From IMG/VR virus record IMGVR_UViG_3300037089_000374, positions 1 to 29,646 of that record: a stretch of DNA of 29,646 bases. One strand, written 5' to 3'. Of the stretch, positions 761 to 25,207 are shown in pieces. Each line of letters begins with the position of its first letter. Position 1 is the first letter of the stretch. The position numbers were made by a program, and so were the translations under genes. The notes beneath the pieces were generated by a model, which made no database searches, was not told where the DNA came from, and saw nothing but the letters and a program-made list of their open reading frames with translations. The stretch is from a virus.

Positions 761-772
761 TTTCCCTCCAAT

Positions 773-832
773 AAAAAACGCGAGTTACTCGTTTTATCGA
801 ATGACTCGCGTTCAGTGTATCTGATTAGCGAT
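773..832 (-). terminator. Hairpin leader element, copy 1 (intrinsic terminator or attenuator before the fibre gene)
   Basis: On the minus strand a 9-bp stem (AACGCGAGT/ACTCGCGTT, 777-812), probably extended inward with one mismatch, is followed by a run of six U. Four bases after the U-run lies the GGAGGG ribosome binding site of the fibre gene, then ATG at 760. The 26 bases at 807-832, which include one arm of the stem and the upstream flank, are identical to 15365-15390 in copy 2. It begins directly after the stop codon of the DUF2612 gene. No promoter fits between the hairpin and the start codon, so the fibre gene must rely on read-through, or the hairpin acts after transcription (RNase III site, RBS control). 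Confidence 0.7.
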
Positions 833-838
833 AAATAT

Positions 839-1582
839 TTAAATTAATGAATCCCTATAAGATATCATACTCCCATTTATAATATTACCATAACTGCAAA
901 AACCTTTACTAGCAATTAATAAATAATTTGAGTAGTCGCAAAAACCAAATATGGTTGTCGGATCAACGTTTTGAATTAGATGAAGAAGCACACACGCTGG
1001 TACAGGGAAAATGCCAAGTAATGCGGCTAATTTAAAAATCTCCCCATAGTCGATTGGAACCAAAATGGTCATGGACATATTCTCGTTGTCGTACACAAGT
1101 GACGGTAGGTCAAACAAATCATATAAAATTGTTTTTAATAAATAATAAGTTGATCTTCCCACATTAAATGCTATTTTTAATTGAATTAATATACGAAGTT
1201 GAGCGTCAGTTAATGTAAAAACTCCGTTGGAGTAAGCCATGTAGGAATACATCTGACCCGATGGGCTAGGTAGAGTTGTGTAAGTTCTCATCCCCGTCCG
1301 ATCTGTAAGGTCAGATGTGATATATGTTATAAATTCACAAAATAGCCGTGTCGGATCATAGCCTTGTACATTGCGCGGCACTCCCACATATTTTCCTAGA
1401 ATTGTTAACTGCTCTCCAACTGCCGTGTCAAGGTCAAATGCCCGTTCAAGATCATAGGGTACTCCGGCCATAAACAACTCAGTCATTAATGCATTTACTG
1501 TTTCCAGAGCATTGTATTGTTCCGAGTATTGATAAATTAATAGCGATTGATAATAGTCAACAAAGTTTTGTAGGTTAGACAT
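839..1582 (-). CDS. DUF2612-like baseplate protein (P2 gpI position)
   Basis: About 247 residues. It resembles DUF2612 phage proteins, which follow the gpJ-like wedge gene and precede tail fibres, so the likely role is in the outer baseplate, joining wedge and fibre. The pattern fits: an N-terminal helix (NLQNFVDYYQSLL), then GEQLTILGKYVGVPR, then ALTDAQLRIL-type segment (seen as FTLTDAQLRILIQLK), and a C-terminal IFGFCDY segment. I chose ATG at 1582, which overlaps the preceding stop by 8 bases and gives an N terminus like the family's. An in-frame ATG at 1606 would add eight residues. Neither has a clear Shine-Dalgarno sequence, so translation is probably coupled to the upstream gene. Confidence 0.75.
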   Translation of the reverse strand: MSNLQNFVDYYQSLLIYQYSEQYNALETVNALMTELFMAGVPYDLERAFDLDTAVGEQLTILGKYVGVPRNVQGYDPTRLFCEFITYITSDLTDRTGMRTYTTLPSPSGQMYSYMAYSNGVFTLTDAQLRILIQLKIAFNVGRSTYYLLKTILYDLFDLPSLVYDNENMSMTILVPIDYGEIFKLAALLGIFPVPACVLLHLIQNVDPTTIFGFCDYSNYLLIASKGFCSYGNIINGSMISYRDSLI

Positions 1583-2771
1583 CGCTGATTGATATATTAG
1601 TTGCATCCAATGTGAAATAATTCACGAGCGTTTTAGGGTCTAATAAGTCCACGTATGACATTCCGTTGCCGCTAACCTGCATATCTTGTAAATAAATATT
1701 GGTATATAGGTCGTAAACCATTGCCTCAAAATAAGATTTGTTAGCTTCCTGCCCAATATTAAATGAGGAGTTTAATACCATCTGCTGCTTGATATAATCT
1801 TTGTCCACTGACCCATCACCCGTCAAAACACGAACCCCAAATTTAACATATAACGGCTCGGCCACGGCATTGTCATATTTTACAATAAATAGACCACCGT
1901 CAATCTCTGTAATATTTACTGCAATAGATCCCCTCATACCAGAACCGCCGCTACGTGATTCATAGATAACATTTCCAATCTCGGCACTTGTGGCTGTTGA
2001 CGCTTTTACAATTATCCAATATGAGTGAGCGGTAATTCCATTCGTGTCCGTTATCGCCGTATTGTTTTCAAGAACGGAGCAATCTTCAACGCCTGCCAGA
2101 GCCAGCAATGAGCCAATCATTGACTCTTTAAAACCGGTTGATAATATCGCTGTACTGCGTTGTTGCCTGAGCCGCAATTGCACATCACTTTCCTCGTCTT
2201 GACCGACGATCAAAGTTGTCGCGGAATTATTGACCGATTTCACGCCTAGCGTTATGGTGATAATGGTCGTTAATGTATTAATAGCCGCAATATTTACACC
2301 CATTGTCTTTGCGGTAAACAAGCAGGAATGAGTGCCGGCTGCTGTGATGGTTTGGCTGGTTGATAAATACCACTGAGTTCCAGCCGAGTCCGAGATTGCA
2401 AAAGTTCCGGTTGGGGCCAACGACGAGTCAACCCCGTCGAGCCCTATCAAATTTAAAGCCCGGTCTGTAACAATATCCACATATACGGTACTGTAAACAC
2501 CCGCCTTACGGGTTAAATTATTTAAGGCCACACGAGAGTCAAGATTAACGCCTATTGCTTGTTGCGGGTCAAATGATGTATAAATAGACGCCAAAAAACT
2601 GGTTAAATCTTGTATCGCCTGAGCAAAAATATTCATCATCTGTCCATCAGGGGAATTTGAATCCAAATTAATATCTGCACCATATATATTTTGATAATCT
2701 GCAGTTAAATTTGCTAAAACCTCAGATAAAGTGGTGATGATTAGTCCGTTTGTGTCGAGACTGTTTGGCAT
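1575..2771 (-). CDS. Baseplate wedge protein, gpJ / gp47-like
   Basis: 398 residues, a normal size for the Baseplate_J family (P2 gpJ, Mu gp47). These proteins form the wedge ring around the hub of contractile tails. Supporting features are the N-terminal segment DYQNIYGADINLDSNSPDGQ, the following region with an AIQDL helix and VGVNLD-type turn (here IGVNLDSRVAL), and the mid-protein GQDEESDVQLRLRQQRS with its conserved acidic Glu-Ser-Asp followed by Arg-rich helix, then AGVEDCSVLENNT. It begins in a TAATG overlap with the gp25-like gene and ends overlapping the DUF2612 gene, as in known baseplate operons. The family call is strong from motif order and position. Confidence 0.9.
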   Translation of the reverse strand: MPNSLDTNGLIITTLSEVLANLTADYQNIYGADINLDSNSPDGQMMNIFAQAIQDLTSFLASIYTSFDPQQAIGVNLDSRVALNNLTRKAGVYSTVYVDIVTDRALNLIGLDGVDSSLAPTGTFAISDSAGTQWYLSTSQTITAAGTHSCLFTAKTMGVNIAAINTLTTIITITLGVKSVNNSATTLIVGQDEESDVQLRLRQQRSTAILSTGFKESMIGSLLALAGVEDCSVLENNTAITDTNGITAHSYWIIVKASTATSAEIGNVIYESRSGGSGMRGSIAVNITEIDGGLFIVKYDNAVAEPLYVKFGVRVLTGDGSVDKDYIKQQMVLNSSFNIGQEANKSYFEAMVYDLYTNIYLQDMQVSGNGMSYVDLLDPKTLVNYFTLDATNISISDV

Positions 2772-3127
2772 TATACTGGTACCTCCACGGTATTTGTTTG
2801 GTTAGTTGTAAAAAAGGTGTTGATATCATAATAAACCGTCATAAGTCGTTGTGCCGTATCAAACACGGACTCAACGGTATTTATTTTTACAACCCCGTAC
2901 GATCCCATAATAACACGACGAATTTCATTTAAAAACAAATCTTGATCTTTTTGGCCTAAAATGGAAAACCAGTCAACGCCATCCTGCAAGGCGAAAAAAC
3001 AATCATTTTGGAACGATAACAACCGTGTTTTAAGATTCATCATAATAGCGTCGTTGTTCTTCAAGTAATTTTGTTTTCCCTGCCCAAATGTCCAGTCCCC
3101 TGATCCTGTAAGATTTCTAAATATCAT
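2771..3127 (-). CDS. Baseplate wedge protein, gp25 / gpW-like
   Basis: 118 residues. It sits between the spike and gpJ-like genes, the standard place of gp25/gpW-family wedge proteins, which help form the inner baseplate and are linked to sheath initiation. The N-terminal GDWTFGQGKQNYL followed by a helix with LLSFQNDCFFALQDGVDW matches the myophage variant in which this small protein carries a characteristic FxxDCFF/G-x-DW segment. The start overlaps the preceding gene's stop in ATGA. Assignment rests on length, position and this segment; a distant search would settle the subfamily. Confidence 0.7.
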   Translation of the reverse strand: MIFRNLTGSGDWTFGQGKQNYLKNNDAIMMNLKTRLLSFQNDCFFALQDGVDWFSILGQKDQDLFLNEIRRVIMGSYGVVKINTVESVFDTAQRLMTVYYDINTFFTTNQTNTVEVPV

Positions 3128-3789
3128 GATAATACCTCCGCAATACTGGTTTTTACTTGCTCAAGGGCCGTCACTGACGCCGGCGTTAAAACGTGGTTGG
3201 TAGGGCTTCCGAATGTCGCAATATTTTCAACTGCTGATATTAAACTATTTAACAAAGTTTTAAGATCGTTTTTTGAGTTCTCAATTAAAACCTTATTGGT
3301 TAGTTTAACTCGTGTACTACCGTAATTTAATTGGGTGGATGAATTATCATAATTGCTTATGGCGGATGCTAATGACCTAAATCCAACAATGGCCAACCCA
3401 TCAGCAAGGCTATGAACTCTCGTTGTGTTTGGAATATTGGTTCCTCCCGACTCAAACCAGTTATCAATGTCCCTGTCCGAGAATAGAACCAGACAATCAT
3501 CACCTTCACTTGTCGGCACCCTAATACCCCCCGCCGACCCCGAGACAATCATAACCGGCACATCAACTAATAAAGGGAAGTCGACTATTTGTGTTTGTAA
3601 AGTATTCTGGTCGGGATAAATTTCTTTGCTTAAAATCTCAACTGATGCCGTTTGAGTGTCTGCGTCGAATGAATTTATCTTACCTATTAAATGACAAAAT
3701 AGTGTGTTTTTGGTCTTGGCCTCTTGTAGGTCTAAGACCGTTTTAAGTGTAGGCTCGTAAGTTTGCCGAAATATTTTAGCGTTTTCCAA
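3124..3789 (-). CDS. Baseplate spike protein, gpV / Gp138-like
   Basis: 221 residues. The N-terminal part fits the OB-fold of the Gp138/gpV spike family: strands around LIGKINSFDADTQTASVEIL, then VDVPVMIVSGSAGGIRVP, then GDDCLVLFSDRDIDNWFESG. The last motif, ending in Asp-x-Trp-x3-Gly, is typical of these proteins. The C-terminal half would form the trimeric beta-prism that pierces the outer membrane or cell envelope. It is shorter than many spikes, so the needle tip may be short or supplied by another protein. The gene overlaps its neighbours on both sides (hub gene by 14 bases, wedge gene by 4). Confidence 0.8.
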   Translation of the reverse strand: MENAKIFRQTYEPTLKTVLDLQEAKTKNTLFCHLIGKINSFDADTQTASVEILSKEIYPDQNTLQTQIVDFPLLVDVPVMIVSGSAGGIRVPTSEGDDCLVLFSDRDIDNWFESGGTNIPNTTRVHSLADGLAIVGFRSLASAISNYDNSSTQLNYGSTRVKLTNKVLIENSKNDLKTLLNSLISAVENIATFGSPTNHVLTPASVTALEQVKTSIAEVLS

Positions 3790-4675
3790 TTGAGTACCCC
3801 GATGCCATAAAATTTAAATACACGGTCGTTGTGCATTCTCCCCCAGCTACCGACCCCGATATAATTCCCTGATGTGTAAAGCCTGTTACCTCATAGCTTT
3901 CATTATTGTAAATCGGATTGACTAAGCTATTTAACTTAACCCATTGTTGGGTCTCAAGACCCGGCGTAAAAATCATCTTAAAAATCAATTGTGTGTCATT
4001 ACGCTTGGGGGTGTCGAGTAATCCATCATTAAAATCTATGACTGCAATTAATCCCGGCTCAAACACCTCAGTTTTACCATCAGACCTTTCTTTATTCAGA
4101 ACGTAAAGCCATCGATCCTCAATAAACGTTTTTGTTGATGCAAACGATGTTATCAACCCGTATGGCTCGCCGATATACGCCTGCCCCCTCTTGGCAATAA
4201 AATCTGAAAAACTATCAGATACATAAGTACCTGTTAAATTGGGCATATACCCTGATAGACGGGACAATAAATCCCGAAAAGACTCGTCTTTGTCCACAGT
4301 AACAGATGCTACACCGTTATTCGTCGCGTCACCGCCATCCCACGCAAATATCTCCGTTATAATATCTTTACCTTGACGATATGAATAGCATTGCCTAACG
4401 GTGCCATCAAATATTTTTACTAAATTACTGGCGTCACCATAACCTGCATTGAAAATAATTTGTCGTCTTGTATTAGTTGCATAAAGTTCATGATAAATTA
4501 AATTGCGGGTATCAAGTTTTAAATTGTACAGTTTGAAATTCGCCTCATTTAATGAGGCCATATTATGCTTTTTAACCATAAATTCACAGGTTATCGGGTA
4601 ACTAATATCTAGCCAATTACCTGACAAACCATCTTGTATTGATAAAGTGTAATTACGGCCAAATTTAAGTGCCAT
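3776..4675 (-). CDS. Baseplate hub protein, gp27 / gpD-like
   Basis: 299 residues. It lies between the plug-like and spike genes, where contractile phages encode the hub that connects tail tube to spike. The N-terminal beta-rich region (FGRNYTLSIQDG, then ISYPITCEFMVKKH), the segment IIFNAGYGD...VKIFDGTVRQ, and a following FAWDGGDA stretch agree with hub proteins of the T4 gp27/P2 gpD fold, which have an xxAGY...F.G.V core in their tube-like domain. Sequence identity in this family is usually low, so position contributes much of the support. Confidence 0.7.
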   Translation of the reverse strand: MALKFGRNYTLSIQDGLSGNWLDISYPITCEFMVKKHNMASLNEANFKLYNLKLDTRNLIYHELYATNTRRQIIFNAGYGDASNLVKIFDGTVRQCYSYRQGKDIITEIFAWDGGDATNNGVASVTVDKDESFRDLLSRLSGYMPNLTGTYVSDSFSDFIAKRGQAYIGEPYGLITSFASTKTFIEDRWLYVLNKERSDGKTEVFEPGLIAVIDFNDGLLDTPKRNDTQLIFKMIFTPGLETQQWVKLNSLVNPIYNNESYEVTGFTHQGIISGSVAGGECTTTVYLNFMASGYSIGKR

Positions 4676-5021
4676 TTGCTATTTGTCCGGTGATTAATGA
4701 GTCTAAATATATCCGGTCGTCTTGGGTTAAAACATAAATCTCAATTCTTCCCGTTGTAAAATCTGTTTGGAATGCCGGGTCATATATATCGGTTGAGGAT
4801 ACGGAGATATCAAAATTGATGATGCTTTGCCATTGATACAGCAATGAAAATGTACTGGTTAGTCTCGCATAATTTAATGTTAATTTTGGGTGAGATATGG
4901 CATAAAACCAACTATTTTGACTATCCACATATTTTAAGCTTAGTGATAATAGGCTATTGTCTTCAAGCCTGATATTAAAGTTTTGTTGAGGTGCGTCAGT
5001 TATGCATTGAACTTGAAACAT
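4665..5021 (-). CDS. Small baseplate protein, plug-like (Pam3 gp18 / DUF6983-like)
   Basis: 118 residues, beta-rich. The order of features (an NFNIRLEDNSLLSLSLKYVD segment, a Trp-Phe-Tyr, and later GRIEIYVLTQDD) resembles the small proteins located between the hub-associated and hub genes in Pam3-like cyanophages and related myophages, annotated there as baseplate plug or DUF6983. A plug would sit inside the hub. It overlaps the hub gene by 11 bases and the previous gene by one. I am moderately sure that this is a baseplate component and less sure of the exact subfamily. Confidence 0.55.
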   Translation of the reverse strand: MFQVQCITDAPQQNFNIRLEDNSLLSLSLKYVDSQNSWFYAISHPKLTLNYARLTSTFSLLYQWQSIINFDISVSSTDIYDPAFQTDFTTGRIEIYVLTQDDRIYLDSLITGQIANGT

Positions 5022-5914
5022 TAAAACCCCCCTATAAATTCAGAACATTTTTTAAATAAATTACCGGTGCCGGTTCTGTCGGCGATCCCCGCAGCAGCAC
5101 TCTTTAATAATTTCTGTGATGATCTTATCTGATTGTTTACAGCCGGTGATAACATGTTCGAATTAAAGCCAGCCGATGACGCATAAGACAAAGTGCTGGT
5201 AAACCTCATTTTTTTAAATCTAATCACCATCTCGGATACACTACGTGTATCACCTTGGGTAATGGTTATCATCTCAATGGCCATATTATCAAATGACTTC
5301 CATGGGGTAATGATAGAAAAAATCTCTTTTGATTGCCAAAGATTGTAAAAGTACTCAAATGCCTGCGTCTGCTTGGTCGATTTGCTTGTATTTGCCCCGA
5401 TAATAGATGAATACATTGAATATAAATCGTCGGATACTTTTGTTGCGTTTTTTATCTGTGTTTCCACCCGAGAAATAGTATTTAAAACGGTTTGAGTGGC
5501 CATACTAAATGCCGGACATAAATTTGCTATTGGGTTAAATGTCCTCACACTATTGCTGGCAGACGTTGTAATAGTTTGTACGTTCGCCTTCAATTCTGAT
5601 ATCGACCCTTTTACCGATATAATTTCCGGCTTAATAGCTATATGATCCTGCAACGGTGAATTGTCTTCTGAATAATGGTCGGTTATATCTGACTGAAGCG
5701 TTATCGAGTCTTCATCAACTACGTCAAAATAAAAACCATCTATGTATGTGTTATTTCCTGGGAATTGCGGGTTTTTATTTGGTCTCACTAAGGCTTTTGC
5801 CGTTGTTGTTACCGCCGTCTTAAAAGGTGATGAATCAAGAAATGAGGTCAACCGGGTGGTATTGGCTTTTAGCTCATTTGAAAAACTTTTTAGGGATGTT
5901 GATATAATATTCAT
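5021..5914 (-). CDS. Baseplate / tail-hub-associated protein (Dit-like N-terminal half)
   Basis: 297 residues, directly after the tape measure gene and overlapping it in ATGA. Residues around 60-110 show DGFYFDVVDEDSITLQSDIT followed by a His-Tyr, DHI and PEIISVKGSISEL, a pattern seen in phage proteins that follow the tape measure in DUF3383-type myophages and are predicted to be Dit-like or hub-collar components. The segment IITPWKSFDNMAIEMITITQ with its Pro-Trp near two thirds of the length also recurs in that group. A hydrophobic or LysM-like domain is not evident. The exact structural role is inferred. Confidence 0.55.
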   Translation of the reverse strand: MNIISTSLKSFSNELKANTTRLTSFLDSSPFKTAVTTTAKALVRPNKNPQFPGNNTYIDGFYFDVVDEDSITLQSDITDHYSEDNSPLQDHIAIKPEIISVKGSISELKANVQTITTSASNSVRTFNPIANLCPAFSMATQTVLNTISRVETQIKNATKVSDDLYSMYSSIIGANTSKSTKQTQAFEYFYNLWQSKEIFSIITPWKSFDNMAIEMITITQGDTRSVSEMVIRFKKMRFTSTLSYASSAGFNSNMLSPAVNNQIRSSQKLLKSAAAGIADRTGTGNLFKKCSEFIGGF

Positions 5915-7674
5915 GGCCTAGCAAATCCCATATTTTGGGTCGGTATCTGAGTATAAGTATCATTGATTTGACGCTGGAAAACCTTTTCCACTAAATTTGC
6001 CGTGACTTGAGGGTTGTTAGCCTCGTGGATTGTAAAATTATTTGTTATTGAGTGCCCCTTCACTGAAGCAATTTGACTATTAATGTCATTTTTTCCGCCA
6101 ATGAGATTGTTTTGTGATGATTTAATAATATTATCACTTTTTTCTGTCGAGACAGGGGCGTTTGATAAAAGCGAAGGAAGTTTTATAATTCCACCTAGAA
6201 TGATGTCACTAACCTCATTTATCATTTTTTCATTTTGTGATGATTTAATAATATTATCACTTTTTTCTGTCGAGACAGGGATGTTTGATAAAAGCGAAGG
6301 AAGTTTTATAACTCCACCTAGAATGATGTCACTAACCTCATTTATCATTTTTTCAAATGGAGCGGTATAATTTAAAGCTTTTTCAAAATATTCTTTTTGC
6401 TCTTTGGTGTATTTTAAATACTCGGTGCTTTTCCGGAAGGTATCGACGTCCGACGTATTGACAGCCCCGTGAGCATCTCTTCCCTTGTTATATGCCATCT
6501 GAAGTTCCGGTGACTTTTCCATTGTCCTGTATTCTTTAAATGACAAGCCGCCCTTTGCTTTTGTGTTTGTAAATTCCATAACTTTCTCAATTACATTAAC
6601 AAAAAAGCCTAGCAAAACCGACGCTCTATCTAACCAGTATGATATAATTTTAAATACAACTTCACCCAAAACTTTTGCACCTTCTAAAGCCTGAACTAGC
6701 TCTCCTGACACAATATCTTTTAAGCTTGTAAATAACGGCTTAAAATCTTTCATCCAATTGGGTAAAAAATCTATTTTTTTGAAAAACTTCTCGATTCGGC
6801 CAATAATACTATCACCGCCCTTTAGATATACATAAATGTCATCCAATATTAAAAATAGTGCCAGAAATGCTGCCGTTATTGGCGCAAAGGCAACCATTGC
6901 CACTGCCCCTATAGCCACTAACGCAGTTTTTAATATCGGGAATTGCTCTATTAATCGGCCTGTATAACGGAAAGCGTCCTGTGCGCCCATTGATATATGT
7001 TTGTAAATCTCAAGTGTTCCCTCTAAAGCTGGTTTTAATGCAATAACAATACGGCTTATAGTTGATGATAATGTGAAGGTTAAATCTTTTAATGTGCGAT
7101 TTAACTCAAGCAATTTCGCATATTCTTTCTCGGATAAAATGAGTTCTTTATTAACCTTTCCCAGCTCAAACGCTTGACTTCTGAAGATATTTAAAAAATT
7201 CTGACCTATTCCCATCTGTCCCATAATCTGCGAGGCTATTGCCGGCGGCATATTGGCTGTCGCTGATCTAACTCTTTCCAATACTTTAAAAGTGTCCTGC
7301 TCTCGCACGTTGACACCTAAAAGATAAAAGGGACGAGCGTTCCCGCCACCCATTAAAATTTCCGCTTGAGCTTTCTGAATGGATTTTATTGTTTGGACAA
7401 GGTCTTGGCCGGATACATTATTTTGTTCTGCTGCGTACTGCCATATTTTCATCTGTCTGGCAGATAACCCCGTTTGAAGTGCAAAATTACTATATTCAAC
7501 GGCCCCTCGGATACTCTCTTGTGTTGTCAATGATATCGCCGCAGCTATGCCAGCAATTTCCATTTTGGTTTTTAGGCTCGAATTAAATAAGGAGTCTAGC
7601 CCTGACTTAAAGCTATTTAGTCCGGTAGCGTCCCCCTTTGCCCCTATCGAAACAAAAAATTCTCCAAGTTTCAT
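5911..7674 (-). CDS. Tail tape measure protein
   Basis: 587 residues, the longest protein of the minus arm, located right after the frameshifted chaperone as expected. The N terminus (KLGEFFVSIGAKGDATGLNS) is typical of tape measure proteins, followed by long helical stretches. A hydrophobic segment at about residues 249-278 may be the part that inserts into the host membrane on DNA entry. Residues about 440-522 contain a 41-residue tandem duplication with only a few differences. Tape length sets tail length, so the duplication would lengthen the tail by one unit. The gene starts inside the ATGA overlap with the chaperone fusion frame and ends in another ATGA. Confidence 0.88.
   Translation of the reverse strand: MKLGEFFVSIGAKGDATGLNSFKSGLDSLFNSSLKTKMEIAGIAAAISLTTQESIRGAVEYSNFALQTGLSARQMKIWQYAAEQNNVSGQDLVQTIKSIQKAQAEILMGGGNARPFYLLGVNVREQDTFKVLERVRSATANMPPAIASQIMGQMGIGQNFLNIFRSQAFELGKVNKELILSEKEYAKLLELNRTLKDLTFTLSSTISRIVIALKPALEGTLEIYKHISMGAQDAFRYTGRLIEQFPILKTALVAIGAVAMVAFAPITAAFLALFLILDDIYVYLKGGDSIIGRIEKFFKKIDFLPNWMKDFKPLFTSLKDIVSGELVQALEGAKVLGEVVFKIISYWLDRASVLLGFFVNVIEKVMEFTNTKAKGGLSFKEYRTMEKSPELQMAYNKGRDAHGAVNTSDVDTFRKSTEYLKYTKEQKEYFEKALNYTAPFEKMINEVSDIILGGVIKLPSLLSNIPVSTEKSDNIIKSSQNEKMINEVSDIILGGIIKLPSLLSNAPVSTEKSDNIIKSSQNNLIGGKNDINSQIASVKGHSITNNFTIHEANNPQVTANLVEKVFQRQINDTYTQIPTQNMGFARP
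6111..6356. repeat. 123-bp tandem duplication in the tape measure gene
   Basis: Two adjacent copies, 6111-6233 and 6234-6356, differ at about four positions. The period of 123 bp equals 41 codons, so the frame is kept. Each unit encodes the segment that starts EKMINEVSDIILGG and ends DNIIKSSQN. Confidence 0.95.
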
Positions 7675-8257
7675 GGTGTTTCCTTATTTAACTCAAAATA
7701 TGCGTTTTCGTATTGGTTGCAAAAATACTCATATTCCAACGCGCTCATCACATACTCTGATGGCATAGCCATAATTTCATTTATGGTCCCATATCCCGCC
7801 CGCGATAGTTTTAATCCTATTAAAATTAAATCATTACAATTAATAGCCGTTTTAGGTAGTCGCCGGCTGCTTATTTCGACGGATTCAGTAATCCTAAAAC
7901 GCTTTTGGGTAAAAAAGGCATCAAATTATATTTGAGTACCTCCCATAAAACGATAATGTAGTCTGACCGTGACTCTAGTGATTCAAAGGTATCATTTGAT
8001 ATTTTTTGGCCGTTATACAATGCTCTGTCTAATGCAGGTCTTAAATCTGATAACATTTGATCGGATGCAATAAAATGACAAACTATATTTTTCAACGGGG
8101 TTAAATCGCTTGACATGATGTCGTTCAAATTAAACCCTGATATATCAACATCTTTCATTTCTCTTAAAACAGATTGAGACAGTTTAAATCCTGCCTCAAC
8201 ACTTAACATTGTGATCTCAAGTTTCGCGCCGCTCTGTAGCGTAATGGTTGTGTTCAT
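7671..8257 (-). CDS. Tail assembly chaperone, long -1 frameshift product (gpGT-like)
   Basis: The upstream frame (start 8257) can shift -1 at TTTTTTA, 7910-7916. The -1 frame has no usable start of its own; it is open from shortly before the slip site to a TGA at 7671-7673 that overlaps the tape measure ATG in ATGA. The joined product has about 116 residues from the first frame plus 79 from the second, about 195 in all. The downstream part contains RAGYGTINEIMAMPSEYVMS followed by ALEYEYF, the kind of segment found in the T half of phage tail chaperones. Gene order (tube, chaperone G, GT, tape measure) is classic. Without the shift, about 200 bases before the tape measure gene would look empty. 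Confidence 0.85.
7871..8257 (-). CDS. Tail assembly chaperone, short form (gpG-like)
   Basis: 128 residues, starting one base from the tube gene's end (8257). Helical composition, a location between tail tube and tape measure, and a -1 shift site 13 codons before its end identify it as the short tail-assembly chaperone, which in lambda-like systems coats the tape measure during tube polymerisation together with a small amount of the frameshifted long form. The segment with KISNDTFESLESRSDYIIVL and the terminal MPFLPKSVLGLLNPSK can be seen. The sequence itself is not conserved enough for me to name a family. Confidence 0.8.
   Translation of the reverse strand: MNTTITLQSGAKLEITMLSVEAGFKLSQSVLREMKDVDISGFNLNDIMSSDLTPLKNIVCHFIASDQMLSDLRPALDRALYNGQKISNDTFESLESRSDYIIVLWEVLKYNLMPFLPKSVLGLLNPSK
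7910..7916 (-). promoter_or_regulatory. Programmed -1 ribosomal frameshift site T TTT TTA
   Basis: In the upstream frame the codons read CCT TTT TTA CCC, so the heptamer is T TTT TTA in the X XXY YYZ register, the same slippery sequence used by HIV-1 gag-pol. After a -1 slip the next codon is ACC and the frame runs 79 codons into the chaperone T part. The next in-frame stop upstream in the -1 frame lies about ten codons earlier, confining the shift to this neighbourhood. I did not identify a definite downstream stimulatory stem. Confidence 0.8.
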
Positions 8258-8706
8258 TAGGAAATGCTCCTGCTTTCAGCCGTAAACTTCATCATATAAA
8301 TTGCCACGCCTTGCTCAACATCGCCCTCAACGTTTGTTTTAAACTCAGGGTTGCTTTTTGTAAACACTCCACCGGTTAACATGTAATTGTCGGCACCGGC
8401 TGAAGGGCCAAGCATCCTGGTAACGTCAATGCTTAATAAGCTAAAATTGTTAAAATTACTCTTCATTAACGATAACGCTGTAAGAATCTTTTTATCATCG
8501 TCGCAGCCTCTTAAGACTTTTAATGTAACATCCACAACTTTTCCCATTTCATTGAATGAATAAATGGCTACACCGTCTTTTCCTCGTTTAACATTTACGA
8601 TATCATTTGGGAATGCAATTGTTAAAACGTCACCACTTACAAACCCCGTAAAAATGTCGCCGTTAAATTTTATAGTATCATTGCCTGTAAAACATACTTT
8701 ACCCAT
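8257..8706 (-). CDS. Tail tube protein
   Basis: 149 residues, immediately downstream of the sheath gene and upstream of the chaperone, the standard tube position. The protein is beta-rich and contains paired features of tube proteins: NGDIFTGFVSGDVLTIAFPN near the start, RGKDGVAIYSFNEMGKVVDV (sensor for the repeated beta-hairpins) and DVEQGVAIYMMKFTAE at the C terminus. It resembles the small tube proteins paired with DUF3383-type sheaths (DUF3277-like). A ribosome binding site with AGGAGG precedes the start at 8706. Confidence 0.75.
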   Translation of the reverse strand: MGKVCFTGNDTIKFNGDIFTGFVSGDVLTIAFPNDIVNVKRGKDGVAIYSFNEMGKVVDVTLKVLRGCDDDKKILTALSLMKSNFNNFSLLSIDVTRMLGPSAGADNYMLTGGVFTKSNPEFKTNVEGDVEQGVAIYMMKFTAESRSIS

Positions 8707-8720
8707 AATCGTAACCTCCT

Positions 8721-10214
8721 TTATTTGTTGACACTAATAATAATGTCAGATGAATGAATTGCTCCTTGGTACTTAATTGCAACTTGAATGACTGGGGATT
8801 TTCGGTCTTCCCGATCAGCTACCGACTGGCTCGATATAGGTGATGAATACAAGTAGTATCCTTTTTCAATAATATTGCGTAAAAAGTTTGCTTGGTCACC
8901 AAACGTATCCGCTGCTGTCCACGTACCGGGCCCAACAAACCGATTTGATACGGCCTGATCGCATAATAGCCGGATAGCTGATTTAATCGCGTCCATACCA
9001 TCCTCGGTCTGAGGAATTTTTGTGGCTGTCGTCGCTAGAACATTAAAAACGTTTACTTGTAAAGAAAGCTTAAACCATAACAGATTAAAAATATCATCAA
9101 AAAAACTATTTGTACCGCTTGAATAAATCTTTGATAAATTTGCAATCAATGGATAACAATCTGCACCAACGGCTAACGCTTTTCCTAGTATTGTCTGGGT
9201 AATGGATGTGTCACCCGTGATACCTGTTAGCGTTTTTAAATGCTGCGTTGTGGTAGTGTTTGATGCGTTAAAATTAACGGCCATACCTCTCGATGCATAG
9301 GCTGCTGCGAAAATACGCGCGGTCTGATCTGATACGGAGTAATAAAGACAACGTGTATTGGTATTTCCCGCTGATCTAACATTGTCAAAGTCGCTTGACG
9401 AATTTAATTGAGTTACATCACTGGATGGGAAAAATAATAGTTTATCAATTCCCTGAACATAAGTCGCTAATGCACTGCCGTTGACTTCGCTAGTTAAACT
9501 TTTTGTTGCTAAAATACCTTGATAATAGATGATGTCCTTTGTTCGGATAATAGCGTTTTTAACGGTCTCTGTAGCACCAGATGCCTGTCCATCAACGGTG
9601 GTTCCTAATAAAACGTCCAGATATCCAAGTGCGGTAATGTCGGTACCAGATGATGCCGCTTGAATTTTTACTTTTGATGCCGCGCCAGTGGTAGCAGACG
9701 TAAAAACAATGGTTCCTCCTGATACTGCCGCCGTTACTCCCGATGCTGTGATACCCGCACTTATTATGCTTGCAATATGAGCTAACGTTGGAGCCACTCC
9801 AAAAGATAATCCTGTAATAGTTGTGTATGTGCTAGCCGCGTCAATTTTAACCTTTAATGCGCCGTTAGCAACACTGTCAAAATTGCTTGTATTTAAACTG
9901 ATGTCGGGAGTGTTAAAAGTGCCCGCCGTTGCTGATGTGGTTAATAATGGGATGACTACTAATTTACCACCACCAACTAAAATATTTGGTGCCTGTGCAA
10001 AAATGGCTGTCGCTTGTAAAAATGTCTCACTGGCAGACCCCCATATTGTTGCAACAGTGGTTGGGTCAGTATATACATCGTAAACATCAGATAATGGAGT
10101 GACTGGCGTCTCTGCTGTAAAAATAGCAATATTTGATGTGCTATATTCAGCTGCCCCCGCAGATGCTTGCGAAACGCTTACGCTTACAATATTTGCAATA
10201 TTAATCTGGTTCAT
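8721..10214 (-). CDS. Tail sheath protein, DUF3383-like
   Basis: 497 residues. The N terminus (NIVSVSVSQASAGAAEYSTS, then IAIFTAETP) and the YTDPTTVATIWGSASETFLQ segment with its following QAPNILVGGGKLVVIP resemble the DUF3383 sheath-like proteins of myophages, in which the region after the Gly-rich turn is an inserted domain and the C-terminal third forms the core ring. The C-terminal DREDRKSPVIQVAIKYQGAI with SSDIIISV strand would supply the donated arm linking sheath subunits. AAGGAG lies eight bases before ATG 10214. Expression at high level is expected, and the gene begins a run with well-formed ribosome binding sites. Confidence 0.85.
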   Translation of the reverse strand: MNQINIANIVSVSVSQASAGAAEYSTSNIAIFTAETPVTPLSDVYDVYTDPTTVATIWGSASETFLQATAIFAQAPNILVGGGKLVVIPLLTTSATAGTFNTPDISLNTSNFDSVANGALKVKIDAASTYTTITGLSFGVAPTLAHIASIISAGITASGVTAAVSGGTIVFTSATTGAASKVKIQAASSGTDITALGYLDVLLGTTVDGQASGATETVKNAIIRTKDIIYYQGILATKSLTSEVNGSALATYVQGIDKLLFFPSSDVTQLNSSSDFDNVRSAGNTNTRCLYYSVSDQTARIFAAAYASRGMAVNFNASNTTTTQHLKTLTGITGDTSITQTILGKALAVGADCYPLIANLSKIYSSGTNSFFDDIFNLLWFKLSLQVNVFNVLATTATKIPQTEDGMDAIKSAIRLLCDQAVSNRFVGPGTWTAADTFGDQANFLRNIIEKGYYLYSSPISSQSVADREDRKSPVIQVAIKYQGAIHSSDIIISVNK

Positions 10215-10229
10215 AAATTTACTCCTTTT

Positions 10230-10748
10230 TTATTTGTTTGTTTTGACCAAATATGAATACGTGTCAAAATAATTAATGCTTTTAGTCATTTCTAGCGTCG
10301 AGTAAACATGTACTGACGCGTGATACCTATTTAATCTTGCAGCTCCCTCCAAATAGGATAAATCAATAAAATTTATTGGTAATCGGCATATTTTAATATT
10401 ATATTTTTCCTGTTGCTGTTGGCTATAAACCGATTGCAGCGCTATGATGATTTCATATCGGCGCAATAATGCCTGTATTCCTTTTGACATTATATCAATG
10501 CCGATTATCTCAAGTTTTTGAATTGTCTTCGTTTCGGTGTATCCGGTTTCTGAAGCATAGCTTTGAACATTACTTCCACAATAAACGATCGCGCTTATGA
10601 TGGAGAGGGACACATATAAATCCTCGTTTGGTGGTATGTCCCATTTTTGATTATACACCAAAACCTGATTTTCATTTAATACCAATTCAGCTCGGATAAT
10701 ATCGCATAAAATCTGAATGGGCATTGGTTCCGGAACATTATTTGTCAT
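10230..10748 (-). CDS. Neck / tail terminator-like protein
   Basis: 172 residues with the start at 10748, where ATGA overlaps the previous stop. A longer in-frame start at 10808 would give 20 extra residues embedded in the preceding gene and looks spurious. The N terminus MTNNVPEPMPIQILCDIIRA is helical and is followed by VYNQKWDIPPNEDLYVSLSI, a pattern of the small protein encoded just before the sheath in this phage type. Position between the connector genes and the sheath suggests a tail-terminator or sheath-initiator role. The protein family is not recognised with certainty. Confidence 0.5.
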   Translation of the reverse strand: MTNNVPEPMPIQILCDIIRAELVLNENQVLVYNQKWDIPPNEDLYVSLSIISAIVYCGSNVQSYASETGYTETKTIQKLEIIGIDIMSKGIQALLRRYEIIIALQSVYSQQQQEKYNIKICRLPINFIDLSYLEGAARLNRYHASVHVYSTLEMTKSINYFDTYSYLVKTNK

Positions 10749-11143
10749 GGTTTGGCATAATCCTTTATAGCGTGATATTCCACATATCCGTAACTGTCCC
10801 AGTTCCAAGTTCCTAAAATTCTGTAATTTTCTCCGTTATATTTAATAATGTCGTCCGTGTTTAAAACTAAGCCCGGCAACGCGTGAATTTGTAGCCATTG
10901 CCAAGACCGCTGACCTTCAGGTTTTAATAAAAGGTCTTTCCGGTTTAGTGGCTGGACAACGCCCATAAAAGTTGTATCAACAAACGTCTCAGTCATTAAT
11001 CCACCACTTACGCTTTGGGCTTTAACACTAAACGTAATAGCCCTAAACCATCCACGCAATGTCCCACTCATAATTGGTAGCGATGCTGTGTTTTGATCTA
11101 GCGTCATTATATTTGCGTTAAAGATAGGTGACACGTTGCTCAT
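10745..11143 (-). CDS. Head-tail joining / neck protein
   Basis: 132 residues, mostly beta strands. The segment TFMGVVQPLNRKDLLLKPEG followed by QRSWQWLQIHAL and ILGTWNWDSYGYVEYHAI closely matches a common pattern of phage neck proteins in which VQP...L...PEG...W precedes a small beta-barrel. It lies between the gp10-like and terminator-like genes with 4-base overlaps at both ends. The likely role is closure of the head-tail interface. Confidence 0.6.
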   Translation of the reverse strand: MSNVSPIFNANIMTLDQNTASLPIMSGTLRGWFRAITFSVKAQSVSGGLMTETFVDTTFMGVVQPLNRKDLLLKPEGQRSWQWLQIHALPGLVLNTDDIIKYNGENYRILGTWNWDSYGYVEYHAIKDYAKP

Positions 11144-11685
11144 TGTGATACCACCTGACTTGATACTGACTTTCTTAATTGTGCGGTATCAATACCAATG
11201 GCTGATGAGCCTTTTAACTTGATGGTGATTGGCGATAATCCGGGCCACTTTCCATCCCCCTCTGTTTCAAACGCCTCTTGAATTTTATCTTCAACTATCG
11301 CTCCAATAATCTGTAAAGAATCGTCCTGCTTTCCCCTTTTCGCCATAAGTTCAATAATTTTTTTGTCTTGTTTTATGATATTTATAATGGATGACGTGAC
11401 GGAAGCCATTAGCCAAGGCCGCGCCGGTACCTTTTTACTAACAACACCAAATTCTAATGATGCCCCCACGTCAGCGTTAGATGGGTTTTCTTGATAAGTA
11501 CGTAGTAATCCTTCTCGGATAGACTCGGGAATGGATTCATCATTTTTAAACTTGTTATATCGGGATAGTAAATAGTCGTTATTACGCGCCGCACCCTCTG
11601 ATAATACGCCCACTTTTACATAGGATCGACCTGCAAAGGCTTTTTTTAACTTTTCCAATCCATCTGTGTTGTATTTAATATCCAT
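11140..11685 (-). CDS. Head-tail connector, HK97 gp10 / Mu gpG-like
   Basis: 181 residues. The opening KYNTDGLEKLKKAF and YVKVGVLSEGAA, the central ASLEFGVVSKKVPARPWLMA and the C-terminal KWPGLSPITIKLKGSSAIGI with D-T-A-Q-L-R-K-S after it are diagnostic for the gp10-like / virion-morphogenesis (Mu gpG) superfamily, whose members complete the connector between capsid and tail. ARPW(L/F) and D(T)xxLRxS are the most recognisable elements. It starts one base from the previous gene's stop and ends in ATGA. Confidence 0.8.
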   Translation of the reverse strand: MDIKYNTDGLEKLKKAFAGRSYVKVGVLSEGAARNNDYLLSRYNKFKNDESIPESIREGLLRTYQENPSNADVGASLEFGVVSKKVPARPWLMASVTSSIINIIKQDKKIIELMAKRGKQDDSLQIIGAIVEDKIQEAFETEGDGKWPGLSPITIKLKGSSAIGIDTAQLRKSVSSQVVSQ

Positions 11686-12128
11686 TATGCTGGTGTGGTT
11701 GTTCCGGCGGCTATAACAAAATTTCCAATCAGACGAGGGATAATGTTTGCTAAATAATGAGTTCCATATCGGGTGGTGGCTAAAAAGGTATAGTATGGGT
11801 TCTTTTTAATGGTGTCGGGAATGGAAAAAGACTCTGATACACTTCCTACGATTTTTGATTCAGTCAGCCAAGGAAAAGACCCGTTAATTCCCTGTGAACT
11901 AGTCATAAGATCATTACATAAATAATGTGCTGTTAACCATAAAAACTCAATGGTGTATTCTGCTTGTGAACTAAAAAGTGCTTGATTGATATTTAATGCC
12001 GCCAGGTTAATGGCTTTATCGATGTCAGCATCAAGCACTTTTGTCGGATCTGTCTGATCCGCGGCGTATTGGAAATCACGAGTAAAATATGCTTTAAAAT
12101 CAACTTTAGTCGGGTTTGTATACGCCAC
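11685..12128 (-). CDS. Head completion / adaptor protein, DUF4054-like
   Basis: 147 residues. FKAYFTRDFQYAAD near the start, then an all-helical centre with EFLWLTAHYLCNDL and late PYYTFLATTRYGTHYLANI match DUF4054 phage proteins, helical adaptor-type proteins that bind below the portal. The C-terminal Tyr-Gly-x2-Tyr/His-Leu element is typical of the family. Located just after the capsid genes and before the gp10-like gene, as expected. Confidence 0.75.
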   Translation of the reverse strand: MAYTNPTKVDFKAYFTRDFQYAADQTDPTKVLDADIDKAINLAALNINQALFSSQAEYTIEFLWLTAHYLCNDLMTSSQGINGSFPWLTESKIVGSVSESFSIPDTIKKNPYYTFLATTRYGTHYLANIIPRLIGNFVIAAGTTTPA

Positions 12129-12142
12129 ATTATCATCCTTTA

Positions 12143-12451
12143 TTAACTGTTTTTCGTCTCGCCGGCGGATTGCGTAATACTATCATCGCGCTTGGTAATT
12201 ACTTTTGTCTTAGAAACGGGTGCTGAGCGATCTGGTAATTGTACTGGTGCAATTATTGCTTTTGGTTCGACCGGCTCGACTTCTGTTTTTTCGGTTTTCT
12301 TGATTTTCAAAGGTTCCATTGCTTTAAACGCTTGTGGATACATACCCAAAACGCGAGTCCCTTCTTGGTCATCAACCTCAAAAGTCTCTCCAGCATCAAT
12401 CATCCCAAAACTAAATTTATACTGCGCAGACGAAACATTTTGCATTAACAT
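12143..12451 (-). CDS. Small protein between capsid and adaptor genes
   Basis: 102 residues. The first half (QYKFSFGMIDAGETFEVDDQ, then GTRVLGMYP) looks like a short beta module found in small phage proteins that follow the major capsid gene. The second half is a low-complexity tail rich in Lys, Glu, Pro and Thr ending SAGETKNS. A role in head completion is suggested by position only. The start at 12451 has AGGAG eight to ten bases upstream. A plus-strand frame of the same length here is a shadow. Confidence 0.5.
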   Translation of the reverse strand: MLMQNVSSAQYKFSFGMIDAGETFEVDDQEGTRVLGMYPQAFKAMEPLKIKKTEKTEVEPVEPKAIIAPVQLPDRSAPVSKTKVITKRDDSITQSAGETKNS

Positions 12452-12470
12452 TGTTGACTCCTCTTATTGT

Positions 12471-13520
12471 TTAAGTATGGTCGAAATACATAACTTCTAA
12501 ATCGCGGTAAATAGCTGTTCCCGTGAACTGGCCATATCCAACATTTTGGAAGTTGAAATTATCTAGGCTGTTGAATTGCGTTGCTGTTAAATCAACAGGG
12601 ATATTCATTGTCATGGTTTCTTTGTTGTGCCGGTACAACGCATAACGATAAACATTTGCGCTGCGTGTTGACATTTGAGCTAACTCGCAATATGCCTGCG
12701 GCAGAATTTTGAATTGCTCTTCAGGATCACCCGCGCCAATACCAAACCCAGCTAAAACAACTTTAAAAGCGTCTTCCAAATATTTAATTTTGGAAATATT
12801 CGGGAATTGCACTGATGCTGCAGCACCTAATCCTAAATAGTCACTTGCCGGAATAACAAATCGGTTGGGGACAGTTGTGCTGTTGGTGTTGGCAAAATAT
12901 TCAGCTAACAAGATAGCTACAAAATTTTGAAAGTCATCGGCACCTAAAGTGCTGATCATATCCGTAATTGTAGTTGTGTTTGGCGTTACGTTTGCATTGT
13001 TCAATAAACCAGTAACGCTGGTGTCTGTCGGATGGCCAAGCATACAAATTTCTTGCAATCCTAAATCCCACTCTTTCTTGCGTGCTTCTAATGAGTTGGT
13101 GATCAGGTCGAAATTTAATGACATCATGGCTTGATATACATCGAAAATGCTATACCCAACTTGTTTTCCCCAATTTAAAATAGGGACGTTCATCGGTTTA
13201 ACGGTGGTAGTTACTTTTGACAATCTGGAATTGTTCCCAGTATTAATTAACCCATCCCAAAAAGAACCTCCAACGGGCGCGGTTAATAACCGGATTAAAT
13301 TTTGTTGAAAAGCACCATATCCTACTCGAACGGGTACATAGCTACTCATTTTAAACTCGTAAAATTTTGCATGAGTTAAAATATCTTTCTCGATTTGGGT
13401 TAGTGTATCAATAGTGAATTGATATGCTGAGTCCTGTGTTGAAATACTATTTTGAATCTGTTTGTGATTCATGTGTGGTAGTGGCTGGACGTCTTCTAAT
13501 CTTAAATCTTGGTCTGACAT
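12471..13520 (-). CDS. Major capsid protein, DUF2184-like
   Basis: 349 residues, a normal size for an HK97-fold capsid protein without a large delta domain. The segments FTIDTLTQIEKDILTHAKFY, MSSYVPVRVGYGAFQQNLIR and VPILNWGKQVGYSIFDVYQA and the later LGLQEICMLGHPTDTSVTGL with LLN after it agree with the DUF2184 group of phage capsid proteins. The Lys-rich N terminus may be an assembly region, but no cleavage site is evident. It follows the protease/scaffold and decoration genes. AAGGAAAGGAG precedes the start. Confidence 0.85.
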   Translation of the reverse strand: MSDQDLRLEDVQPLPHMNHKQIQNSISTQDSAYQFTIDTLTQIEKDILTHAKFYEFKMSSYVPVRVGYGAFQQNLIRLLTAPVGGSFWDGLINTGNNSRLSKVTTTVKPMNVPILNWGKQVGYSIFDVYQAMMSLNFDLITNSLEARKKEWDLGLQEICMLGHPTDTSVTGLLNNANVTPNTTTITDMISTLGADDFQNFVAILLAEYFANTNSTTVPNRFVIPASDYLGLGAAASVQFPNISKIKYLEDAFKVVLAGFGIGAGDPEEQFKILPQAYCELAQMSTRSANVYRYALYRHNKETMTMNIPVDLTATQFNSLDNFNFQNVGYGQFTGTAIYRDLEVMYFDHT

Positions 13521-13536
13521 ATTCTTTCTCCTTTCC

Positions 13537-14001
13537 TTATGATTTCTGAAAATCTAATTTAACACGGATGAGTTGGCCTTTAGCTGATGCTGCGTCCAAC
13601 GCGTACCCAATACGTTTGCCAGAATTTTGTGTTAAAACTTGTTTGTCTGCGACAACCCATTCAACGGCTCCCCCTGCGGAAATTGCCGTATTTGCTTCCA
13701 TCCATACATATTCTCCATCAATGGCGATTTGTGTGTAATTGCCTTTTACATAGGTGTTTTTCTTGACGCTGTAAATAATGACTCCAAACTGTGCAACAGT
13801 ATTGACCGTCACCTGATCCACAATTGGTAAATGGTCTGAGGTTCCAGACGCTAAAAGTACAACATCACCAACATATAACGCGGTGGCTACGCTACTCGCG
13901 TAAATTTGTACGCTTAATAATGACTGTGGCGATAATTGTAGGTCTAAAGTACCTACGGAATTTTGGACATTAAACTGGTTTAAAAAAGCATTTGATGTCA
14001 T
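13537..14001 (-). CDS. Capsid decoration / cement protein
   Basis: 154 residues, beta-rich, without cysteine. Placed between protease and major capsid genes, the usual position of head decoration proteins. The arrangement LYVGDVVLLASG, then an FGVIIYSVKKNTYVKGNYTQ segment and IGYALDAASAKGQLIRVKLD at the end, resembles small beta-barrel cement proteins of the DUF2190 type, in which G(Y/W)AL..A...GQ.I.V is a late strand pair. Function is inferred from place and fold pattern. Confidence 0.65.
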   Translation of the reverse strand: MTSNAFLNQFNVQNSVGTLDLQLSPQSLLSVQIYASSVATALYVGDVVLLASGTSDHLPIVDQVTVNTVAQFGVIIYSVKKNTYVKGNYTQIAIDGEYVWMEANTAISAGGAVEWVVADKQVLTQNSGKRIGYALDAASAKGQLIRVKLDFQKS

Positions 14002-14021
14002 TTGATCTTATTCCTTTCTTT

Positions 14022-15311
14022 TTAATATTTTTCGCTTCCAGCTTTGTACTGAGATTCTTTGCTCATGTAAGCTGAAATAGCGTTAGAACCGGATTGATTT
14101 GACAACTGGTTAAGCTTGTCAAAGTGAGACTTATCTGCTTTTTTTGAGTTTGATTTAATAGTCTCTTTTTTTGTTTGGTCTTTATCTTCTTCGATTGATT
14201 TTGACTTGTCTTCGTCATCATCATTTTTCTTGTCTGACTTTTTTGATTCATCATCATCATTCGATTTTTTATCTTCGTCGGATTTTTCGGATTTTTTAGA
14301 TTTGTCTGACTTTTTTGATTCATCATCATCATTCGATTTTTTATCTTCGTCGGATTTTTTAGATTTGTCCGCGTCCGATTCATTTTTTTTCATATAATGC
14401 TTTTTAAGATCGCTGACTTTATATTTTTCCCCATTGTGTTCGACCTCATCGTCGTCACCTAGATAATCGTTTTTTTTATGCTCCGGATCGGATTCCTCTT
14501 CTTTGATGAACTCCTTTAGCAGTTTTGAGACAGGTACTTCTTCACCATTAATTTTGACTAAACGATCATTGTCATCTGTAATACGTTGCTCTGGTTCTTT
14601 ATCTTCGTTTTTTTTATTTGACTTCAGAAAAAACTTCATTTGTTTTACTCCTTTTTTAGAATTTAATTTAATTGACGCCCCTTCATATCTGGGGTTTTCA
14701 ACTAATGCTAAATGATTTCCACTAAATTCGAGGATTTCATTGTCATAGTGCGCGGCGTGCCATTCGCCTCCTTTCGAGTCTTTCCTAACGGCATCGTAAG
14801 CACAAGATACCGACCAATTATCGTCTTTAATTTTCTTTTTGCCGTCATCCCCGTGCATTACCCCCCTGGCGTGATACCATCCATCCTCTGCACAAAAATA
14901 AACATCGTGGATATAGCCCTGCGCCTTGTCTTCCATATTACCCGGTGCCAACTTATCATCATGATTAATTATTACCGGGCGACCTATAAACGTCCTAACA
15001 AATTTATCAATTGTGTCCTTCTTCAACAAAGATACACCCTGATTGATATCTTCATAACTGGCGATCCCCGGCTCAATAAACGCTGAATCAAATGGCTCGC
15101 CCCAATCCTTTGCGTTTTGTTTTTGTTCTTGAGTATAATAATGTGGGTCTTTTTTTAAATGGTCGCGCACAATACCCCCAATGATTAAAGGATCCTCGCC
15201 TACTGTCTCAAAATGCTCGGAAGCTTCTTCGTTTAATCCTTTTAAAAAATCTTCTGAGTATTCATATTGAATGTCTTCAGCGATCTTTTTTGCGTCTTCT
15301 TCATCAAACAT
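14022..15311 (-). CDS. DUF2213 prohead protease with acidic scaffold-like tail
   Basis: 429 residues. The first 220 residues match DUF2213 phage proteins, regarded as capsid maturation proteases: FIGRPVIINHDDKLAPGN with His117, WSVSCAYDAV with Ser167 and Ser169 as candidate nucleophiles, and EFSGNHLALVENPRYEGA. Residues after about 225 form a long charged tail of Ser, Lys, Asp and Glu with 24-residue repeats (DEDKKSNDDDESKKSD), ending in an Asn/Gln/Ser-rich segment. Such tails commonly act as the internal scaffold, so protease and scaffold are fused here. The start at 15311 follows GGAG eight bases upstream, directly after hairpin element copy 2. Its catalytic residues are proposed from motif resemblance. 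Confidence 0.8.
   Translation of the reverse strand: MFDEEDAKKIAEDIQYEYSEDFLKGLNEEASEHFETVGEDPLIIGGIVRDHLKKDPHYYTQEQKQNAKDWGEPFDSAFIEPGIASYEDINQGVSLLKKDTIDKFVRTFIGRPVIINHDDKLAPGNMEDKAQGYIHDVYFCAEDGWYHARGVMHGDDGKKKIKDDNWSVSCAYDAVRKDSKGGEWHAAHYDNEILEFSGNHLALVENPRYEGASIKLNSKKGVKQMKFFLKSNKKNEDKEPEQRITDDNDRLVKINGEEVPVSKLLKEFIKEEESDPEHKKNDYLGDDDEVEHNGEKYKVSDLKKHYMKKNESDADKSKKSDEDKKSNDDDESKKSDKSKKSEKSDEDKKSNDDDESKKSDKKNDDDEDKSKSIEEDKDQTKKETIKSNSKKADKSHFDKLNQLSNQSGSNAISAYMSKESQYKAGSEKY
14231..14374. repeat. 72-bp tandem repeat in the protease/scaffold tail
   Basis: The stretch starting at 14231 recurs from 14303 with nearly the same bases for about 58 positions. The 72-bp period equals 24 codons and encodes the charged unit with SDEDKKSNDDDESKKSDK. 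Recent in-frame duplication of a low-complexity scaffold tail is the simplest reading. Confidence 0.85.
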
Positions 15312-15323
15312 CGTTTTTTCTCC

Positions 15324-15390
15324 AAAAAAAAACGCGAGCCAACAAGTTTATATTCTTGTTAGTTCGCGTTCAGTGTATCTGATTAGCGAT
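15324..15390 (-). terminator. Hairpin leader element, copy 2 (before the prohead protease gene)
   Basis: On the minus strand AACGCGA/TCGCGTT forms the base of a stem (15331-15370) that continues inward with eight more pairs and one mismatch, followed by nine U. The GGAG ribosome binding site begins immediately after the U-run and the start codon of the protease gene follows at 15311. Bases 15365-15390 are identical to 807-832 of copy 1, but the upper stem and loop sequences differ while pairing is kept, which is compensatory change and argues that the RNA fold matters. It looks like an intrinsic terminator, yet its location right before a start codon suggests attenuation or a processing site. 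Confidence 0.72.
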
Positions 15391-15434
15391 CAGATTCTAT
15401 TTAATTATTTAATCAGATTCTATTTAATTATTTA
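15389..15434. repeat. 23-bp perfect tandem repeat
   Basis: Two exact adjacent copies, 15389-15411 and 15412-15434, of a 23-base AT-rich unit that begins ATCAGATTCT. It sits just upstream (in transcription terms) of hairpin element copy 2 and overlaps the stop codon of the small gene at 15428-15595. Confidence 0.95.
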
Positions 15435-15595: not shown

Positions 15596-15649
15596 GCTAA
15601 TTTCATTTTAACAGACGTCCTACGTAAGTCAAACAAAATAGGCGAACAA

Positions 15650-24950: not shown

Positions 24951-24952
24951 TT

Positions 24953-25194: not shown

Positions 25195-25207
25195 AAAGGG
25201 AGTCAAA

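Follow-up and report, generated by a model that had tools for sequence, protein, structure and literature searches.

Two leaders on the minus strand of a tailed-phage sequence (IMG/VR record IMGVR_UViG_3300037089_000374; the whole stretch of 29,646 nucleotides analysed here is referred to as the window) contain the same 27-nucleotide (nt) block running into a terminator-like hairpin, and are placed directly before the start codons of a tail-fibre-like gene (copy 1) and of a head maturation protease gene (copy 2). Each of these elements is probably a transcription attenuator, in which a protein-held antiterminator would admit RNA polymerase to the head and tail operons. This reading is built on computed features: the hairpins and their mutual exclusivity, the recurrence of the arrangement before head genes of other phages, the covariation of three strands in a subset of them and the linkage to a small gene. 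The features concerned are arranged as follows.

806 to 832, minus strand: 27-nt block of copy 1, predicted antiterminator hairpin (exact repeat; -6.7 kcal/mol, shuffle p 0.014).
776 to 813, minus strand: intrinsic-terminator-like hairpin of copy 1, whose 5' base GCGA (806-809) is common to the antiterminator (-19.9 kcal/mol, z -5.2).
758 to 780, minus strand: U-run, ribosome binding site (GGAGG) and tail-fibre start codon of copy 1 (from the sequence).
224 to 760, minus strand: tail-fibre-like gene downstream of copy 1 (phrog_20878, E 1.4e-12).
15364 to 15390, minus strand: the same 27-nt antiterminator block in copy 2 (repeat and fold).
15330 to 15371, minus strand: terminator-like hairpin of copy 2, with a different upper stem (-20.7 kcal/mol, z -6.9).
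15309 to 15333, minus strand: U-run, ribosome binding site and protease start codon of copy 2 (from the sequence).
14022 to 15311, minus strand: head maturation protease (DUF2213) gene downstream of copy 2 (phrog_530, E 1.3e-9; PF09979, E 4.5e-11).
15389 to 15434, minus strand: exact tandem duplication of 23 nt next to copy 2 (sequence and fold).

An initial annotation, made from the letters of the window, had described two strong hairpins with U-runs behind an identical flank of 26 nt, set before the ribosome binding sites of a protease and a tail-fibre gene. The repeat is indeed exact and on the same strand, its length being 27 nt rather than 26, and the rest of this description holds. None of 200 shuffles reaches the stability of either hairpin, and each hairpin is immediately followed by its U-run, by GGAG(G) and by the ATG (at 760 for copy 1, at 15311 for copy 2); the profile matches listed above bear out the identity of both downstream genes. 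The two copies are nearly identical except in the upper stem and loop. As had been noticed, the upper stems (GUCAUUCG/CGAGUAAC and ACUAACAAG/CUUGUUGGC) both pair, with no sequence in common. No further copy of the 23-nt core of the block is present in the window record, even with up to three mismatches allowed, and in the public viral collection the block is found in only two contigs, both from the same virus. A partial match in L094 was rejected, as it sits within an unrelated coding sequence.

Folded alone, the block forms UCGC-uaa-UCAG(AUACA)CUGA-ac-GCGA, i.e..((((...((((.....))))..)))), a structure that covers the whole repeat minus its first base and whose energy is matched by 1.4% of shuffles. 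The structure ends in the strand GCGA, which also forms the base of the terminator 5' arm. The upstream UCGC and the UCGC of the terminator 3' arm thus compete for one strand, and the antiterminator and the terminator are therefore mutually exclusive. When folds of the growing transcript are followed, the outer helix of the antiterminator has a probability of 0.86-0.93 in copy 1 and of 0.62-0.87 in copy 2, and in both copies transcription of the final part of the terminator brings it down to 0. An antiterminator-scoring test on the two window leaders gives p values of 0.005 and 0.015. The anatomy of copies 1 and 2 is that of an attenuator: an intrinsic terminator hairpin and U-run precede the controlled gene, and an alternative hairpin uses the terminator 5' arm beyond chance, within the window by fold energy only. 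The conserved segment before the stem, which the initial annotation had left unexplained, is real and is accounted for as a hairpin of its own competing with the terminator.

That annotation had proposed attenuation, an RNase III site or control of the ribosome binding site. The first option gains support, as the conserved segment pairs with the terminator 5' arm and the same anatomy is found in relatives. An RNase III site is unlikely from the anatomy alone, because the stems have 15-16 base pairs (bp) with a mismatch, and the immediate U-run is a terminator feature. Control of the ribosome site is not favoured at copy 1, because GGAGGG is mostly unpaired, with two weak pairs, in the fold of the 73-nt leader; copy 2 is less clear, since pairing between its U-run and the ribosome-site region is possible. 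The annotation had not noticed the competing structure, the linked small gene or the occurrence in other phages.

The suggestion that the block be looked for in related phages gives a divided answer: its sequence is confined to the same virus, but its anatomy recurs, with paired changes in 13 switches (a switch being the antiterminator and the terminator that shares its strand). About 200 loci with related head modules were gathered by portal searches, and terminator-like hairpins within 90 nt upstream of a gene were counted per lineage. Such a hairpin precedes the protease in 9/68 lineages, against 3/68 for the opposite-strand control, and the contrast is weaker when a gap of at least 60 nt is required (9/40 vs 6/103, p 0.006). 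None was found before the portal, head-morphogenesis, decoration or capsid genes of the same lineage set. Lowering the hairpin cut-off brought in L021, L143 and L163. L034, one of the nine and initially counted as a switch, was dropped, its hairpin being the terminator of a tRNA; at L034:13296-13366 a tRNA gene lies immediately upstream of the protease, followed by this terminator.

We then scored, against shuffles of the upstream sequence only, two-helix antiterminators that use the 5' arm of the hairpin. In ten lineages besides the window, an antiterminator overlaps the terminator of the protease leader (combined p 1.9e-7), and the four lineages discovered after the idea was formed give p 0.0013 on their own. 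No such signal is present in 28 control terminators (p 0.87), nor in those that follow the capsid gene (p 0.73). Of the six real matches to a strict descriptor of the switch, five directly precede a protease or tail-fibre start codon; it is their position alone that is informative. Few Pseudomonadota contain the pattern (2/398 sampled genomes, one being the source of L091, whose protease has no close relative in viral contigs).

The commonest type of switch is NGGU-a-UYGG(AAWAA)CCRA-GCCN. Pairs were counted on hand-aligned columns because MAFFT shifted one row of the alignment, to which L033, L091, L137, L143 and L163 were admitted via their protease leaders. The first three outer pairs are present in 13/13 switches (U-G, A-U or C-G; G-C, C-G or U-G; G-C, A-U or G-U); at the second position of the inner helix the pair is U-A, C-G or U-G, and no switch lacks any of the seven terminator base pairs. 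At the shared strand, the usual U, G, C is replaced by A, U, A in L137, and the usual G, C, G by C, G, C in L143; in both cases the 5' partner changes along with it and the terminator 3' arm still pairs. In this 13-switch subset, changes in three strands preserve both predicted alternative helices.

Some genomes contain two switches. In G341, one (GGGU-cg-UCGG(AAUAA)CCGA-GCCC) precedes a virion protein and the other (GGGU-cg-UCAG(AACAA)CUGA-GCCC), with the same inner helix as the window's, precedes the tail sheath gene. In G336, a small gene is followed by a hairpin leader and by a DUF2213-type protease, and a second switch lies about 13.6 kb further on, between a phrog_587 gene and a tail-fibre gene. 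These are the window's two places, and the two-switch layout is not unique to the window. The G336 protease leader, whose loop falls outside the descriptor, is probably a variant of the switch, as judged by eye. Second copies without an adjacent small gene, before tail-fibre or sheath genes, are found in the window (copy 1), in L281 and in G341.

In relatives, the gene directly upstream of the switch is small (42-63 codons), and its product carries the motif FYGSIxIxFxNGxI. Small gene and terminator are present or absent together across lineages. On the portal tree the switch needs nine gains or losses, of which at least four are forced, and the label shows no significant clustering in either direction; because of these changes, the linkage is not attributable to one inheritance. 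A scan of the viral collection with the RNA pattern only gave 32 distinct matches, and the small gene lies upstream in 9/11 of the matches that complete the upstream pairing, vs 0/21 of the others (p 2e-6); the nine include some lineages already known. In the newly found phages, the head gene after the switch is another one: in L250 it encodes a head maturation protease from a different family, in L275 a scaffolding protein and in L287 a virion structural protein, while in L258, L270 and L277 the products are acidic scaffold-like proteins, judged by composition.

The small protein is modelled as a helix and a beta-hairpin (predicted local distance difference test score, pLDDT, 85). Several small proteins match DUF2292 (PF10055) weakly, at E 1.4e-5 to 5e-3, with scores all under the Pfam gathering cut-off (at most 20.7 of 22 bits). 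A fold search of the PDB gave no significant match, tblastn of four small proteins against annotated phages nothing significant, and an open-access literature search, in which two papers name DUF2292, no function for it. Leave-one-out profiles recover all members except the open reading frame (ORF) of the window, the majority strongly and L016 at E 0.0016, and a profile of the family run on 48,707 frames of the gathered loci finds no additional member. Two features of the window lie in the corresponding position.

15428 to 15595, minus strand: ORF of 55 amino acids directly upstream of copy 2, in the position of the DUF2292-like gene elsewhere (from its position).
15605 to 15632, minus strand: sigma-70-like promoter TTGACT-16-(TGT)TAAAAT upstream of the 55-residue ORF and of copy 2 (consensus match only).

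By its position only, the 55-residue ORF is possibly the equivalent of the small protein; it has no BLASTP match to L016, and its single-sequence model is of low confidence and lacks the helix-hairpin fold. The promoter is the nearest good sigma-70-like match, 214 nt upstream of copy 2.

We infer that termination really occurs, that a protein binds, and the direction and timing of the regulation, from these features. During transcription of the leader, the 27-nt block would fold first into the antiterminator hairpin; as soon as the longer hairpin had its 3' arm, the stabler terminator would capture the shared GCGA and transcription would stop before the gene. If the antiterminator were held, polymerase would read through, and the head operon (copy 2) and the tail-fibre operon (copy 1) would be expressed together. 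The holder could be a small RNA-binding protein of the phage whose gene lies immediately before the head-operon switch, DUF2292-like in relatives and possibly the 55-residue ORF in the window; its binding would switch the late operons on. In a wider form of this proposal, an RNA-binding DUF2292-like protein of about 45-60 residues and its cognate hairpin would move together between unrelated phages, and would switch on the head operon and, via extra copies, tail genes; the chances that this is a hitherto unrecognised phage antitermination system seem to us evenly balanced.

Several points weigh against attenuation by a held antiterminator. The window provides no covariation of the antiterminator because its two blocks are identical, and the internal loops of its variant are larger than those of the common type. 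The tandem duplication next to copy 2 gives rise to a hairpin of 7 bp, AUCUGAU(CGCUA)AUCAGAU, which is in competition with this copy's antiterminator and could counteract it. No promoter is evident beside copy 1, and the 55-residue ORF is unrecognised by the family profile built without it. The strict descriptor has six matches in 1 Mb vs 0, 4 and 6 in shuffled sequence, a total that is not above chance, and the first descriptor was framed after several examples had been seen. Finally, 8/13 of the aligned switches were selected for pairing.

The alternative that survives best, although we hold it to be unlikely, is a moron cassette, i.e. an insertion comprising the small gene, a promoter of its own and an ordinary terminator, in which the hairpin just ends the unit and late transcription reads through it. 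By their original definition, morons are complete transcription units that have been added to the genomes of phages (PMC6316719), and the succession of sigma-70-like promoter, small ORF and terminator at copy 2, as well as the patchy co-occurrence of small gene and terminator on the portal tree, fit this outline. It does not fit copy 1, and leaves unexplained both the second copies that have no small gene beside them and an overlapping antiterminator which covaries over three strands and is absent at other terminators. Morons resemble the switch units in placing a promoter, a small gene and a terminator between conserved late genes, but require neither an antiterminator nor second copies elsewhere.

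It is very unlikely that the hairpins are leaky terminators acting constitutively, by which the dosage of head and tail genes would be set without a regulator. Terminator-like hairpins free of any antiterminator do precede the gene following the major capsid gene in 6/38 lineages, including Bdellovibrio phage phi1422; the one at L096:11165-11265 and those of five other lineages may be leaky terminators setting dosage. A plain terminator of this sort would have no need of 19 invariant nt upstream of the stem, of an alternative helix kept by compensatory change, or of a linkage to one gene family. We give as little credit to the idea that the small hairpin, rather than competing directly with the terminator, is the loading site of a processive antitermination complex of the lambda nut or HK022 put type. 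Its 4-bp stems and A-rich five-base loops recall boxB hairpins in size, but in every case its outer strand overlaps the terminator stem and the two covary, which would be superfluous for a remote loading site, and no boxA-like conserved sequence was noticed in a look by eye. Hardly tenable, lastly, is a block acting as promoter or DNA operator (for host polymerase and a phage activator, or for a phage RNA polymerase) with the hairpin as 5' mRNA stabiliser: TACACT resembles a -10 box and sigma-70-like promoters end 6-24 nt before the switch in several relatives (combined p 0.007), but there is no conserved -35 at the right distance and the block sequence varies in relatives while the pairing persists. 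A T7-type promoter was rejected, similarity being at chance level and no polymerase gene convincing; single-subunit RNA polymerase was found neither in the window, which is a fragment, nor in 38/39 related records, the one weak match being in a bacterial genome record.

The proposed attenuator can be compared with known antitermination systems. Antitermination by lambda N/nut, lambda Q/qut and HK022 put is processive and acts on remote terminators. Here too, phages would override terminators for late or delayed genes with small hairpins of the nascent RNA, but the hairpin is built into the terminator that it opposes. As in the ribonucleic antiterminator (RAT) sites of BglG, LicT and SacY, a short hairpin, imperfect and interrupted by internal loops, overlaps the terminator 5' arm and the two structures exclude each other, and in a published RAT case a small RNA-binding domain holds the antiterminator (PMC3369936). 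The phage switch is not classed as a RAT member because the RNA, the protein family and the target genes differ. Its RNA sequence and loop are others, by inspection, with no match at the Rfam gathering score; the linked small proteins, modelled as a helix and beta-hairpin, match DUF2292 alone and weakly, and no CAT/PRD-family protein is linked to the site; the genes are phage head and tail genes, not sugar operons. In the leaders controlled by ANTAR proteins (AmiR/NasR) a protein-stabilised antiterminator likewise lies beside a terminator, but ANTAR targets use two hairpins, P1 and P2 (PMC3369936), instead of one two-helix hairpin with an A-rich five-base loop. In relaxed Rfam searches we obtained weak, unrelated matches below cut-off, among them one to the ribosomal S15 leader at 15261-15366, over copy 2 (E 0.06), probably by chance. 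An open-access literature search found no published description of phage capsid attenuators of this sort.

For late-gene timing in environmental phages, the present case supplies a specific RNA switch together with a candidate protein partner; the switch is predicted in phages whose head genes are of several kinds. If correct, it would offer DUF2292-like proteins a first testable function, and would supply a very small antiterminator for laboratory use.

The window record itself is a 29.6-kb fragment, in which terminase, portal, protease, capsid, tape-measure-like, baseplate and tail-fibre genes are all on the minus strand; by portal and capsid protein its closest annotated relative is phi1422 (about 38-40% identity). 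The C-terminal half of the protease gene contains low-complexity repeats (14230-14366), and a Tad2-like protein (PF11195, E 4e-13; a Thoeris anti-defence family) is encoded at 15843-16115, between the head-morphogenesis gene and the small ORF. The terminase ORF (18619-19822) matches just the C-terminal part of the large-subunit family, and the 187 nt preceding it have no listed ORF. The tape-measure-like ORF (5911-7674) contains a tandem duplication of 123 nt (41 codons) at 6110-6355, 98% identical. About 37 copies of a 15-nt (5-codon) repeat occupy 21955-22900, inside ORF 21747-22910 (DUF7666, phrog_14105), of which a partial paralogue lies at 24058-24475. Finally, direct and inverted AT-rich repeats at 24950-25200, within the early region, are possibly an origin.

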